From Fidelibacterota bacterium (GTDB taxonomy: Bacteria; Fidelibacterota; Marinisomatia; SCGC-AAA003-L08; D37C17), in assembly GCA_002717625.1 (NCBI GenBank), contig PBEF01000002.1, positions 65,338 to 129,337 on the forward strand: a DNA stretch of 64,000 bases, written 5' to 3'. Positions 30,169 to 35,643 of the stretch are shown one piece after another. A program made the translations under genes and the position numbers. Below the pieces are notes generated by a model, which had not been told where the DNA came from, made no database searches, and saw only the letters and a list, made by a program, of their open reading frames with translations. The first letter of the stretch is position 1. Each line of letters begins with the position of its first letter.

Positions 30169-30480
30169 TTGATAAAAATATTTAGATTCATATTTTCATT
30201 TATACTCATTAGTATAATTTGCTATAGCGTTATTCCTCATGAAAAAACAAAAACTCAAGTTATAATTAGCGTAGATAATCTTTTAACTTACGATGTTATA
30301 GAGTCTTTAGAAGAAGAGCTAAATAGTTATAATAATATAAAGTTTATTGAAGGATCTATATTGACTAGTATTGTTGTTCTAGAAATTTCAGACAACGAAC
30401 TTGAAATGCAATCTATCAATGCCGCTTTTAATCGTTGGGGTTGTAATATTGAAAATATTAATTATAGAATGTTAAATTGA
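30169..30480 (+). CDS. Small exported or membrane-anchored protein, unknown
   Basis: A 103-residue product from a TTG start. An N-terminal hydrophobic segment (FRFIFSFILISIICYSVI) acts as signal or anchor. The rest alternates strands and helices (TQVIISVDN, YDVIESLEEEL, IKFIEGS, TSIVVLEISDN, INAAFNRWGCNI), which resembles a small ferredoxin-like beta-alpha-beta fold such as heavy-metal-associated domains. The CxxC metal site of those domains is missing. Its last nine bases overlap the end of the convergent PpiD-like gene. Function unknown. Confidence 0.5.
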   Translation: MIKIFRFIFSFILISIICYSVIPHEKTKTQVIISVDNLLTYDVIESLEEELNSYNNIKFIEGSILTSIVVLEISDNELEMQSINAAFNRWGCNIENINYRMLN

Positions 30481-32205
30481 TTTATGTCTAACATCTATTT
30501 TTTCAATGTTTTCTGTCATATACTGTATCCAATTATAAAATATATTATCTGATATATTTGATATTATTTTATCTCTTGTATCAGTGTATTTTAAATCATA
30601 TTCATTATCATATAATTTTGTTTTACTATTTAGTTTAACTAGAAATAATTTATTGTTTGAATCTATTGGGTTTGTAATATCACCTTCTTTCATTGCTGAT
30701 AGACAGCCCATCAATTTATAGTTTCTTCCCATGGTTTTAAAGCTTCCATTAATAAGAGACTCTTCAGATTCACTTATAGATACAATTTTGCTTTTATTAT
30801 ATTTTTGATTTTCTATTTCTTCATATTTAGATTGAGAAGAAGGTCCCCAAATTCCATCTGCTTCTAAGTTATTATTAGATTGGAAGTCTTTGATTTTCTC
30901 AATATCTTCTTTGAAAGGTTTATTTTCAATTTTTGGACTAGTAGGATTAAGCATTTTTTCAATTTCATCCCATTCTAAATTTTCATCATTTAGTAAATTT
31001 AAAGCATATATTTTTTTATTTTCATTTAATAATTCTTTTTTGATTTGTTCTGTAACTTCGTTTAATGGTTTTATAGATTTTTCATTTTTATCAATTATTC
31101 TAAAAATTGCAATACCATCATCTGTTATGATTCTATCTGAGACAGAGTTGATATCATTATCAAATGCAAATCGTACAATAGCTCTGCTATAACCCATGCT
31201 TAGTGGTATCCCTGAATTATTTGTGAATTTTTCTGTTACATCAATCGTTCCTGTAATTGATAAATCATATTCTTCTAGAGCAGCATTAAAACCCATGATA
31301 TCAGGCTGTGCATCTAATGCAAAATCAATAGCTTCTAATCTTTGTTCTTCATTAAGTACAATTTCTAGAGAATCATTTTCATTTTCTATATTTTCAAATA
31401 GTATATAATCTAATTTTATACTTTCATCAATAGAAAATTTTTCATCAATGTTTTCAGTGTAATATTTTTCAATTTCAGAATCATCTACATTGATTTTGCT
31501 ATCATCTATTGCTTTGTAATCAAGTGATAGTATATCTATGTTGCAAGTTTGTGTACTTTTATTTATTTCATTTTTAATTTCAAGATCAGAGGTAGATGCA
31601 AGCATGCTATATAAAGATTGTAGTTTTTGTCTTGGCAAATCATTTGATTTTAATTGTGATTCATAATTTGTAAATACATTGATTAATGAATCGGGAATCC
31701 ACTTTATATTTTCATCAATTGAATATTGATAGAGTTCTAAATCAAAAGATTCATCTTCAAGTTTAAATAAATTATTCTGTGTCAAGAAGTTTTGTAAACT
31801 TATTGGTGGAGTATTTCTTAAAAATTGTTTTAATTCTTGATCCTGAGTTTTAAGGTTCAGTTGCTCTATTTTATTATTGATTATTGTGCTGGATATAATA
31901 GCATCCCATGCTCTTCCAATATAATAGCTTTCTGTTGTATTGATTTGGAATTGTTGAGATGAAGCTCTTTGCTTCCTTAATTCTGTAGCAAAGAAACTTC
32001 TGGTAATTTTTTTATCTCCAACTTTTCCAACGTAAAGGGCTGGATTAACGGAATTAGAGAATAATGATGTTAAGCTTGCTCCACCTAAAAAGCCACCACC
32101 TCCACCAGAACTAGTTCCCATAACCCCTACTAATGATAGTACGAAGCCTATTAAGCATACCCATAGAAATATTTTAGATTTTTCTCTTATATCGCTCATT
32201 TTCAT
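30472..32205 (-). CDS. PpiD/SurA-like membrane-anchored periplasmic folding factor
   Basis: A 577-residue protein from the ATG at 32205, preceded by AAGGAG at eight bases. A longer reading frame would run through the tRNA-Ala and is not the gene. A short cytoplasmic start (MKMSDIREKSKIFLW) leads to one membrane helix (about 12-34) and a glycine-rich turn. The SurA_N-like chaperone region follows (about 55-230). Later segments (GYSRAIVRFAFDNDINSVSD, then DGIAIFRI) resemble a degenerate parvulin domain, so isomerase activity is doubtful. Near residue 440, IKDFQSNNNLEADGIWGPSS resembles a peptidoglycan-binding type 1 repeat, which is unusual here. Role: chaperone for proteins leaving the Sec translocon. 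Confidence 0.75.
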   Translation of the reverse strand: MKMSDIREKSKIFLWVCLIGFVLSLVGVMGTSSGGGGGFLGGASLTSLFSNSVNPALYVGKVGDKKITRSFFATELRKQRASSQQFQINTTESYYIGRAWDAIISSTIINNKIEQLNLKTQDQELKQFLRNTPPISLQNFLTQNNLFKLEDESFDLELYQYSIDENIKWIPDSLINVFTNYESQLKSNDLPRQKLQSLYSMLASTSDLEIKNEINKSTQTCNIDILSLDYKAIDDSKINVDDSEIEKYYTENIDEKFSIDESIKLDYILFENIENENDSLEIVLNEEQRLEAIDFALDAQPDIMGFNAALEEYDLSITGTIDVTEKFTNNSGIPLSMGYSRAIVRFAFDNDINSVSDRIITDDGIAIFRIIDKNEKSIKPLNEVTEQIKKELLNENKKIYALNLLNDENLEWDEIEKMLNPTSPKIENKPFKEDIEKIKDFQSNNNLEADGIWGPSSQSKYEEIENQKYNKSKIVSISESEESLINGSFKTMGRNYKLMGCLSAMKEGDITNPIDSNNKLFLVKLNSKTKLYDNEYDLKYTDTRDKIISNISDNIFYNWIQYMTENIEKIDVRHKSI

Positions 32206-32233
32206 AATATGAACTCCTTTTTTAATTTTAAAG

Positions 32234-32306
<73 letters not shown>

Positions 32307-32325
32307 TAAACGTATAAAATACGTC

Positions 32326-32331
32326 ATTATA
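32326..32331 (-). promoter_or_regulatory. Probable -10 element of the tRNA-Ala gene
   Basis: The minus strand reads TTTGTATAATGACG, a perfect TATAAT about 19 bases before the tRNA 5' end. No good -35 is present. Between it and the tRNA lies the inverted repeat ACGTAT-AAA-ATACGT (32310-32324). Confidence 0.4.
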
Positions 32332-32435
32332 CAAAGTCCTAATTTATTTTTTATTATTATTTTCTCAAACAAAAAGGTTAATTTTGAGTAAAGTTTTATT
32401 GAAACTTTAATATAACAAGCTATTATAATAAATTA

Positions 32436-33488
32436 ATGTACAGTCTAGTTAAACAAACTTCATATATAATAATTTTATCGGTCCTATTAGCCTTGGGCAG
32501 GTATTCTTTACTTGATGATTATAACATTTTTGAATCTAAAAAATCTTCATTAGATAATTCTGAAAATATAGAATTAAATCAGATTCTAGATGATATGAGT
32601 TCTCCTGAATCTATAGATATATCAATGGCTAAATCAATATATGACCAAGATATTGGGATTTTTATTGATGCAAGAGAAAGTATTGATTTTGCGGAAGGCC
32701 ATATTGAAGGATCTTTGAATTTGCCTTATTCTTCTGAATCTGATTACAGTAAAGAATTTCTGGATTCGTTATTGTATGCTGATAAAATAATTATTACATA
32801 TTGTAGCGGAGAGGGTTGTTCGCTTAGTGAAGATTTATCATATGATTTATATGAAAATTATAATTTATATTCTGTATTTTATTTTGAAGAAGGTTATCCT
32901 GATTGGGAAAAACTTAATTATCCTATTAAAAAGGGGTATAATAATGAAACTTTTGATATTGAAGGTGAAACATTTTTTACATTCATTGATTATATTATAA
33001 TTTTATCAATTTGCTTTATAATTTGTTTTTATTTCACACATAATTATAAGTATTTGATTCCAATTATTTCTAGGTTGATATTAGGTTTTATTTTTATATA
33101 TTTTAGTTGGGATAAAATTTTATCACCTGATTCTTTTGCAAAATTAATTGTAAATTATGATATGTTACCTATTAGTTTAATTAAGATAGGTGCGTTAATA
33201 CTCCCTTGGCTAGAATTTATTATAGGAGTTTGTTTAATTTTAGGTGTTGTTTTAGATACTTCTGCTACAATATCAATATCACTATTATTGCTATTTATTT
33301 TAATGATTTCTCAAGCTCTTTTAAGAGGTAAAAGTATCGATTGTGGTTGTTTGTTATCAGATATAAATGATTTGTCTGCAAGTAATAAAAGGATGCATAT
33401 GATTCAACGTATTATTCAAGATATTTGTTTTATAGCATATGCAATAATTGTAAAATATAGGGCTATATTTAGGAGAGTAAATGATTAA
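32436..33488 (+). CDS. Rhodanese domain fused to a MauE/DoxX-type redox membrane protein
   Basis: A 350-residue fusion. An N-terminal hydrophobic segment (about 8-22) puts the rhodanese domain (about 65-165) in the periplasm. That domain has GIFIDARESIDFAEGHIEGS and the active-site loop TYCSGEGCS with Cys123. A four-helix membrane domain (185-345) follows, with the CGC motif at 303-305 (SIDCGCLL), typical of MauE/DoxX redox-associated proteins. MauE-like proteins pass electrons or sulfur equivalents across the membrane to periplasmic thiols. Its end overlaps the selenoprotein gene by eight bases (ATGATTAA), so the two are coupled. A shared redox task is inferred. Confidence 0.8.
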   Translation: MYSLVKQTSYIIILSVLLALGRYSLLDDYNIFESKKSSLDNSENIELNQILDDMSSPESIDISMAKSIYDQDIGIFIDARESIDFAEGHIEGSLNLPYSSESDYSKEFLDSLLYADKIIITYCSGEGCSLSEDLSYDLYENYNLYSVFYFEEGYPDWEKLNYPIKKGYNNETFDIEGETFFTFIDYIIILSICFIICFYFTHNYKYLIPIISRLILGFIFIYFSWDKILSPDSFAKLIVNYDMLPISLIKIGALILPWLEFIIGVCLILGVVLDTSATISISLLLLFILMISQALLRGKSIDCGCLLSDINDLSASNKRMHMIQRIIQDICFIAYAIIVKYRAIFRRVND

Positions 33489-34620
33489 AAGAGTTATTTT
33501 TCTGTTATGTTTTCTAATTCATTTTTTATATGCTGCAGATAATACATTTAGAATTATTGCTTCTGCAAATATCAATAATGAAATAGACCCATGTGGTTGA
33601 AAGAAAAAACCAACGGGCGGTCTTGCTCGAAGAGCTACAGTAATAGATGAGTTTGCACGTAATATTAAGAATCATTATATTGTTGATGCAGGGAACCTTT
33701 TGTTTAAAAAAACATCTTTAGAGCCAGGTGTTGGAGGTGAAATTGCACGTATTAATGCTGATATTATATTACAATCATTTGACAAAATAGGTTGTCATGC
33801 ATTTTCTCCTGGAGAAAAAGATTTTGCAGCAGGTAAAGATTTTATTGTTGAATCTTCAAAAAATGTTAATTTTCCATTTATATCAGCTAACATTTATGAT
33901 TTAGATCAAGGATTATTATTTAATCCATATATTATTTATGAACTTAAAGGAATTAATGTAGCTTTTATAGGTTTAACATCCAATTTTATATCTGAAGAGA
34001 TTATTGTTAAAGACCCTATTGAATCACTGAAACCTATATTAACTGAGTTAGAATCTAAAGCAGATATTAAAATACTTTTATTTAGTTCAAGTAATGATGA
34101 TATGAGGAGATTGCAAGCTGAAAGCTTGAATTTATCAATGATTATTAGGAGTAAAAACAAAAAGAAATCTGCTGATGGAGGTAAGGGAATTCCCACTTAT
34201 TCACTTGGAGATAGAGGAAGAACTTTATATGCATTTGATTTAGAGATTAATGATAGTTCTGTAGAATTAACTGATTTAGCATCATTTGAAAAAGTTATAA
34301 AACAATCAAATATTAATCTTAATAAAATGAAAAAAGGAGATTCTACTGTTGATTTAAAAACATTATTTAGAGATGATCCTATTGTTTTAGAAAAAATATT
34401 TAAATATGAAAGTAATATTGAAGAAGCAAATCAGAAAATAGAAAATGCTATTAATAAAATTACAATTAATAAGGTAGATTTAGGAAAGAAAATAGATAGT
34501 CAAATTGATATTCTAAAAATAATTGATGATGGAAAGGTTAAAATAAAAGAATTAACTAATTTAAATCCAAATTATCGTGTTCCACATGATCATGATGGTG
34601 ATGGAATTCCAGATCATTAG
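33481..34620 (+). CDS. Predicted selenoprotein: secreted metallophosphatase-fold protein with Sec at an in-frame TGA
   Basis: A 379-residue product if TGA 33598-33600 is read as selenocysteine (residue 40). The ATG follows AGGAG at 33471-33475. A signal peptide (MIKRVIFLLCFLIHFLYAAD) precedes FRIIASANINNEIDPCG, the TGA, then KKKPTGGLARRATVIDEFAR. UshA-like homologues I recall carry a CGC-type motif followed by GGLARR at this point, so Sec replaces the second Cys. The frame stays open for 340 codons with family-like sequence (YIVDAGNLLF, CHAFSPGEKDF). The metal-binding DxH and GNH motifs of true phosphatases are absent. A coiled-coil region (about 300-360) and a DHDGDGIPDH tail end the protein. 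A stem-loop follows the TGA (see separate entry). The alternative is a nonsense mutation. Confidence 0.8.
33598..33629 (+). promoter_or_regulatory. Candidate bacterial SECIS element after the in-frame TGA
   Basis: After TGA 33598-33600, CGGGC (33614-33618) pairs with GCTCG (33625-33629), five pairs including one G-U, around the loop GGTCTT (33619-33624). The GGTCT of the loop lies 19-23 bases after the TGA, the offset I recall for GGUCU in the E. coli fdhF SECIS. SelB recognises this type of apical loop. There is no clear extended lower stem. The element lies inside the coding sequence, as bacterial SECIS elements do. Confidence 0.7.
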
Positions 34621-34759: not shown

Positions 34760-34763
34760 CTAC

Positions 34764-34794
34764 AGGCCTCTGTAAAGAGGCCTCGTTTTTTTTT
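34764..34794 (+). terminator. Rho-independent terminator between tRNA-Gly and tRNA-Cys
   Basis: AGGCCTC (34764-34770) pairs with GAGGCCT (34777-34783) around TGTAAA, followed by nine T residues (34786-34794). It ends directly against the first base of tRNA-Cys at 34795, so it should reduce read-through into the next two tRNAs. Confidence 0.85.
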
Positions 34795-34866
34795 GGCGTC
34801 GTACCCAAGTGGTAAGGGAGCAGTCTGCAAAACTGTCATGCACCAGTTCGAATCTGGTCGACGCCT
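34795..34866 (+). tRNA. tRNA-Cys (anticodon GCA)
   Basis: A 72-base cloverleaf. Acceptor GGCGTCG pairs with CGACGCC. The anticodon stem GCAGT/ACTGT holds the loop CTGCAAA. The discriminator is T, the cysteine identity base. It begins immediately after the T-tract of the terminator. Confidence 0.94.
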
Positions 34867-34878
34867 CTCGATTAAGTT

Positions 34879-34964
34879 GCCGAGGTGGTGAAATTGGTAG
34901 ACACAAGGGACTTAAAATCCCTCGGACATATTTGTCCGTGCCGGTTCGACTCCGGCCCTCGGTA
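34879..34964 (+). tRNA. tRNA-Leu (anticodon TAA)
   Basis: An 86-base class II tRNA. Acceptor GCCGAGG pairs with CCTCGGT (terminal G-U). The anticodon stem AGGGA/TCCCT holds CTTAAAA. The long variable arm (CGGACATATTTGTCCG) and discriminator A fit leucine. It lies 12 bases after tRNA-Cys. Confidence 0.94.
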
Positions 34965-35001
34965 CAACTTATATCATTTCCTTTAAATAAGAATTTTAAT
35001 A

Positions 35002-35643
35002 ATGCCTTATTTTGAATATTTAGATCAATTTTTAATCATCGCAATGGCTCATTTTTTTGCAGTTGTAAGCCCTGGACCAGATTTCTTTTTAATTCTAAGA
35101 CAATCTTTTGTATATGGAAAACAAAAAACCATACTGACTTCTCTAGGTGTAGCAACAGGAATTTTGGTTCATAGTCTTTACTGCGTTTTAGGTTTATCTT
35201 ATGTACTGACTGATACCTTTTTACATGATGTTTTAAGAATTTTATGTTCTTTATATTTATTTTATTTAGGTTTTAATTCTATTTTTTTCATGAATATTAT
35301 TGATACTGATAATAGTATTGATGTTAAAGAAAAACTAAATTCATCTATTAGTTCTTTTGCTGCATATAGGCAAGGTTTTATTACTAATTTACTTAATGTT
35401 AAAGCCAGTTTATTTTTTATTTCTCTTTATTCTTTTATAGATTTATCAACCCCTAAATATGTATTGTTTTTTTATGCCCTTTGGATGACTCTAGTAACGG
35501 GAGGGTGGTTTATATTCTTAACTATTTTATTATCTGCAAATAAAGTTAATAAAATAGCATATCATTATCATTACTATATAAGTAAACTTATGGGATTTAT
35601 TCTTATTTATATAGCAATAAAAATATGCTTAAATTATTCATAA
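35002..35643 (+). CDS. LysE/RhtB-family amino-acid exporter
   Basis: A 213-residue inner-membrane protein with about six hydrophobic helices. The N-terminal motif FFAVVSPGPDFFLILRQS (about 18-35) is the LysE/RhtB signature, and GxxTGxxxH follows (GVATGILVHS, about 52). Members export amino acids such as lysine, threonine or homoserine lactone. The substrate cannot be told from sequence. It begins 37 bases after tRNA-Leu, with no terminator visible between. Confidence 0.87.
   Translation: MPYFEYLDQFLIIAMAHFFAVVSPGPDFFLILRQSFVYGKQKTILTSLGVATGILVHSLYCVLGLSYVLTDTFLHDVLRILCSLYLFYLGFNSIFFMNIIDTDNSIDVKEKLNSSISSFAAYRQGFITNLLNVKASLFFISLYSFIDLSTPKYVLFFYALWMTLVTGGWFIFLTILLSANKVNKIAYHYHYYISKLMGFILIYIAIKICLNYS

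Follow-up and report, generated by a model that had tools for sequence, protein, structure and literature searches.

A probable secreted UshA-like selenoprotein with a CGU motif, encoded beside a rhodanese-MauE gene in Fidelibacterota (SAR406)

One gene in a stretch of 64,000 nucleotides (hereafter the window) from a Fidelibacterota bacterium is interrupted by a TGA codon near its beginning, which raises the question of whether this codon is read as selenocysteine and, if so, what chemistry the resulting protein might carry out. The reading frame (33481 to 34620, forward strand) runs from an ATG at 33481 to a TAG stop at 34618-34620 and would encode 379 amino acids, with its lone in-frame TGA (33598 to 33600) as codon 40 in the motif DPCG-U-KKKPTGGLARR. 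The preliminary description of this locus had placed the TGA in frame with 340 open codons after it, and both the coordinates and the reading proved exact. At a base composition of 28% GC, an open frame of 340 codons has a chance probability of about 1e-14. The CGU motif is encoded at 33592-33600. As judged from the sequence, the protein probably begins with a signal peptide (MIKRVIFLLCFLIHFLYA, 33481 to 33534, forward strand), and a candidate ribosome-binding site, AGGAG, lies at 33471 to 33475 on the same strand, within the 3' end of the upstream gene. Histidine-rich C-terminal tails (HDHDGDGIPDH, DPHHGHNH), which might bind metal, are found at 34585-34617 in the window and in many members of the bacterium's own family.

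The identity of residue 40 can be judged from orthologous genes. An orthologue with exactly one TGA is present in 22 of the 23 genomes of this family, and the 36 motif-bearing orthologues read across the order comprise 35 with TGA and one, from genome G038, with a cysteine codon. Matches were found in 133 of 171 genomes in the class search and in 195 of 245 in the phylum search. When the UGA column was read in 94 motif-bearing orthologues of the phylum, 75 carried TGA, 19 carried TGC or TGT, and none carried a codon for another residue. Comparison of homologues across the TGA, which had been proposed as a check, has thus yielded Sec or Cys only. A query of the contig collection with the single protein returned no loci; the same collection queried with alignment A1 returned 71. 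Two genomes (G092 and G089) that have a normal Sec copy also contain a second copy each (L152 and L153; paralogues G092x and G089x) in which PKKM replaces PCGU, so that both Cys/Sec residues are gone, and these paralogues are either degenerate or repurposed.

The source genome (1.49 Mb in 23 contigs) belongs to the phylum Candidatus Neomarinimicrobiota (SAR406, now Fidelibacterota). All four of the genes selA, selB, selC, and selD, for which a search had also been recommended, are present together in this genome. The tRNA-Sec gene (selC) scores 65.8 bits, above the cut-off, and is classified by ARAGORN as SeC with anticodon TCA. The selB gene (330 bits) adjoins selA (443 bits). The selD gene (376 bits) is itself a Sec gene, with an in-frame TGA in the motif SPGAG-U-ACK. 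An ISME survey from 2016 listed three single cells of SAR406 solely among the orphan-SelD organisms (PMC5029168), and therefore the genomes analyzed here show a fuller Sec trait. In G013, a genome of the same genus that is 93% complete, selA, selB, and tRNA-Sec were found and selD was not found at E 1e-40, which likely reflects an assembly gap.

Selection at the RNA level provides another type of evidence. A bSECIS stem-loop is predicted at 33613 to 33630 on the forward strand, starting about 12 nt past the UGA, on the basis of covariation on A2 and A3, its fold, and codon freezing. This 18-nt hairpin has a stem of 5-6 bp and a 6-nt loop, GGUCUU (GUCU if the G and U pair), which occupies 33619-33624 and begins 18 nt past the UGA. 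The outermost stem pair is mismatched (A-A) in the window copy. Throughout the bacterium's own order, a 6-bp stem is built from codons +5 to +10 around GGUCUU. Its outer pair, 16-33, joins the first position of codon +5 with the third position of an Arg codon and appears among 33 distinct sequences as CG (17), UA (12), AU (2), and GC (1), with 15 cells in which both sides have changed (0 of 500 shuffles). The stem is displaced by one base in the sister families, where pair 18-30 falls on two third codon positions and is seen as GC (10), AU (6), CG (4), GU (3), UA (2), and UG (1) and is never unpaired; both sides have changed in 13 cells (0 of 500 shuffles).

Codon choice in the loop region is likewise constrained. 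Gly+6 is encoded by GGC in 75 of 75 Sec genes, versus 18% of the other Gly codons in the same genes, and the second Gly of the loop region by GGT in 73 of 75, versus 38%. The loop codons are relaxed in the 19 Cys genes, only one of which uses GGC for Gly+6. Selection on the RNA that is confined to UGA-bearing genes is difficult to account for by anything other than a bSECIS element. The fold of the window sequence (33598-33642) reaches -6.8 kcal/mol and is not better than shuffles (z 0.17). Its energy narrowly misses the minimum free energy of -7.5 kcal/mol or lower applied in bSECIS searches (PMC13188914), which is a search threshold rather than a defining property and is applied here to an AT-rich sequence. 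Because the energy of a single sequence is uninformative, the case for the hairpin rests on covariation.

From these comparative genomic data, UGA codon 40 almost certainly specifies selenocysteine in a secreted protein. The assignment of residue 40 as selenocysteine in the preliminary description is therefore upheld by the orthologue column, the Sec machinery, and the covarying hairpin. Standard ORF calling instead yields a TTG-started ORF of 306 amino acids at 33700, as would be expected if the TGA were a true stop that ended a 39-codon secreted peptide or marked a pseudogene and another protein began farther downstream. A true stop is very improbable, however, given that TGA recurs at the same column in orthologues with as little as ~27% identity, that both flanks are conserved, that the alternative is always Cys, and that the hairpin covaries. 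A sequencing or assembly error for TGC or TGT can be dismissed with still greater assurance, even though Cys codons are one base off, because dozens of genomes from the phylum, each assembled independently, have the same TGA; this check, too, had been proposed beforehand. A lone in-frame TGA would look the same under an alternative code in which TGA specifies Trp or another residue, but such a code is extremely improbable: TGA is the ordinary stop for 11 of 50 long ORFs in the window and interrupts one gene there, and the aligned residue elsewhere is Cys. A scan of the whole window revealed no second convincing TGA-interrupted gene. One TGA-interrupted frame on the reverse strand (34763-35155) overlaps tRNAs and was taken as a chance occurrence.

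If the codon is read as selenocysteine, the remaining question is what the protein does. Pfam contains no significant domain match for it, and the family was detected only through NCBIfam, where the best match is NF041198, 'UshA-like (seleno)protein' (UshA_like_PCGU), with an E value of 1.2e-51 and 175.9 bits over profile positions 17-382 of 519. The curated cut-off of 275 bits is not reached because the match stops at position 382 and the fused cytochrome c554 part is missing; this C-terminal tetraheme domain (profile ~400-518) is absent from the 379-residue protein, and the cut-off is likewise missed in each of the order's 41 genomes. Among the relatives found in Desulfobulbaceae, Myxococcota, Oligoflexia, and other groups, most have four CxxCH motifs after the UshA-like part. 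Cytochrome c554 (PF13435) was found in L219 and L226, of which L219 scores 635 bits for NF041198. A few contigs labelled Myxococcota (L229, L245, L256) encode the short form as well. The window protein combines UshA/COG0737 homology with a CxU motif, as expected for the UshA-like CxU family.

An AlphaFold2 model of the protein (pLDDT 86.5, pTM 0.85) has as its top Foldseek matches E. coli UshA and other 5'-nucleotidases, at ~1e-16 and TM values of ~0.5-0.6. The earlier view of a secreted UshA-like protein thus agrees with the signal-peptide-like N-terminus, the NF041198 match, and the Foldseek result. Metal-ligand positions were mapped through profile-to-structure alignments. None of the two-metal ligands (D, H, D, N, H, H, H) has a match in the window protein, whose residues there are N30, N32, N72, E112, K113, S202, K225, and K227. 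Every aligned position has changed, in keeping with the metal-site loss proposed in the preliminary description, and on these alignments the protein is predicted to retain the UshA/5'-nucleotidase catalytic-domain fold and to have lost the phosphatase metal site. Several ligands are retained in family f5 and in some of the cytochrome-fused relatives, and the sole motif common to all orthologues is CG-C/U. The invariance of this pair, set against the erosion of the metal ligands, suggests that what the family conserves functionally lies at the CGU/CGC pair and not at the metal site. A stop-free paralogue of 633 amino acids that resembles UshA and 5'-nucleotidases is encoded in the same genome (L039; G000:C20:22505-22945) and is presumably a true phosphatase.

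Gene context offers hints regarding a partner. Directly upstream (32436 to 33488, forward strand) is a gene whose product joins a membrane-anchored rhodanese (CSGEGC) to a MauE/DoxX-like domain (DCGC). It has Pfam matches to Rhodanese (7e-11) and MauE (4e-23), and its last 8 bases are shared with the start of the selenoprotein gene. A rhodanese-MauE unit, fused or split, lies directly upstream at every examined TGA locus of the order outside family f5, and directly downstream at most examined loci in the sister families of the class. This link survives rearrangement of gene order and is thus strong evidence for joint function. No rhodanese-MauE was present near the genes of f5, the Cys-form genus g29, or other classes of the phylum (within flanks of ~2 kb for most), and the partner is therefore not obligatory. 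The unit often consists of two ORFs, and a second Sec was considered for it and rejected, as the split is not made by a TGA within one open frame. On the other side of this unit is a divergent gene for a SurA/PpiD-like periplasmic peptidyl-prolyl isomerase (30472 to 32334, reverse strand; Pfam Rotamase_2 and SurA_N), which is a neighbor in 30 of 38 loci. The called start of this gene (32234-32334) runs over a tRNA gene at 32234-32306, and so the real start is probably downstream, at the Met of MKMSDIREK.

Overall, the best explanation, to which a probability of roughly 0.8 is assigned, is a secreted Sec protein whose CGU redox pair carries out sulfur or disulfide chemistry fed by partner proteins. 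The protein would most likely be a periplasmic selenol/thiol oxidoreductase that acts in sulfane-sulfur or disulfide chemistry. A redox role for the CGU pair is considered highly likely, and the narrower assignment to sulfane-sulfur chemistry specifically is tentative. According to this proposal, SelB and tRNA-Sec would decode UGA codon 40 at the bSECIS hairpin, and the C38-U40 pair might then cycle in the periplasm between selenol/thiol and selenenylsulfide forms. In the old nucleotidase pocket, the pair could reduce a disulfide or sulfane-sulfur substrate or transfer sulfur from it. The CGC pair of MauE might bring thiol electrons across the membrane in this clade, and the rhodanese domain (CxxxxC) might supply or accept sulfane sulfur. 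In other phyla, electron transfer would be performed by the fused tetraheme cytochrome c554 domain, such that this domain and the MauE CGC pair may be comparable electron carriers.

Pairs of the CxU or CxC type are also able to bind soft metals. It is conceivable, though unlikely, that Sec is inserted to form a site for a soft metal or metalloid (Cu, Hg, As, or Se) at the CGU motif, assisted by the histidine-rich tail. Such tails end many proteins of the bacterium's own family, and the CGU/CGC pair has stayed invariant despite the loss of the phosphatase ligands. However, most other families of the order lack the tail, and the cytochrome c554 fusion together with the rhodanese-MauE linkage better suits electron or sulfur transfer. 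A considerably smaller chance is given to the idea that what is left of the UshA metal site still lets the protein act on a phosphate or sulfate ester, with Sec in an accessory role. The fold and sequence do resemble those of UshA-type nucleotidases, and several D and H residues equivalent to ligands persist in some distant relatives, but every aligned ligand position is altered in the window protein and CG-C/U is the only motif found in all orthologues.

The Cys forms provide information on the history of the redox pair. Genus g29 (family f13) is represented by 24 genomes, each of ~1 Mb or less and several more than 94% complete. SelA, SelB, and tRNA-Sec are absent from all 24, and selD was not found in the 16 that were searched. 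All 18 orthologues read from this genus (L134-L151) have TGT or TGC at the column, and their loop codons are relaxed. A protein tree, built without the motif columns by a quick method with SH-aLRT support only, places the g29 clade within the Sec clades of its class, as sister to the Sec gene of G050 (SH-aLRT 98), and places G038 among the Sec genes of family f5. The genome of G038 keeps selA, selB, tRNA-Sec, and selD although its UshA-like gene has Cys. In the G038 gene (L090, motif at 1394), the isolated Sec-to-Cys change is accompanied by a one-codon deletion.

The simplest reading of these sequence comparisons would be that the ancestor of the phylum had Sec and that Cys was gained twice, with loss of the pathway in g29 and without it in G038. 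Sec-to-Cys reversals are rare and have been documented mainly for FdhA and SelD, according to a 2026 review (PMC13188914). The phylum would add what appear to be two more, one of which coincides with the disappearance of the entire Sec pathway from a reduced genome, and it supplies matched natural Sec and Cys versions of one protein.

The preliminary description had regarded the protein as a new selenoprotein of no described type, and this part of it does not hold. Table 2 of the GOS survey published in 2008 (Zhang and Gladyshev, PMC2398784) already includes 'COG0737, UshA-like, CxU', for which it counts 76 Sec and 92 Cys sequences; the family appears again in reviews from 2022 and 2026 (PMC9312934, PMC13188914) and is represented by NF041198. 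Some of the UshA-like GOS reads from 2008 may well be SAR406 genes. A partial literature search found no paper discussing the selenoproteins of Marinimicrobia. The short form lacking heme, the rhodanese-MauE cassette, and the Sec-to-Cys reversions look new in that none was seen described, although absence from a partial search is weak evidence. It is possible, and proposed here tentatively, that the short heme-less CGU protein and rhodanese-MauE form a distinct, undescribed selenium-dependent sulfur relay in the periplasm. This relay would be near-universal in SAR406/Marinimicrobia and ancestrally Sec-based, with one streamlined lineage having swapped to Cys on dropping the machinery and another having done so while keeping it.

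Several known systems resemble parts of this arrangement. Like the window protein, members of the NF041198/COG0737 CxU family have a periplasmic UshA-like domain and the motif PCG-C/U ... GGLAR with Sec or Cys at the same column; full-length members have the tetraheme cytochrome c554, whereas the window protein lacks it and is linked to rhodanese-MauE instead. NF049981 (UshA-like family 2) has a related UshA-like domain, but the match is weak (27.4 bits against a cut-off of 140), and its motif is CxxU according to a literature table rather than CxU. E. coli UshA and other 5'-nucleotidases share the catalytic-domain fold; in contrast to E. coli UshA, the window protein has no metal ligands, has a CGU pair, is 379 residues long, and lacks the UshA C-terminal domain. 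The thiosulfohydrolase SoxB, which functions in periplasmic sulfur metabolism, belongs to the same superfamily as a distant relative (TIGR04486, 5e-5), although the window protein scores far under the SoxB cut-off and does not retain the metal site. The upstream gene resembles TsoB, a rhodanese/DsbD-fusion selenoprotein (NF045694), in combining a rhodanese with a membrane redox domain, but it scores 36.5 bits against a cut-off of 805, its membrane part is MauE, and it has Cys rather than Sec.

Since their listing in 2008, no function has been attached to the UshA-like selenoproteins. The clade described here offers a short version that stands alone and can be expressed easily, and the partner genes (rhodanese, MauE, and the cytochrome c554 fused elsewhere) point to periplasmic transfer of electrons and sulfur. 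Among the fused forms, a Myxococcota-like UshA-cytochrome protein (L260) comes from a record titled Klebsiella pneumoniae, a metagenome-assembled contig whose title is probably wrong or whose bin is mixed.
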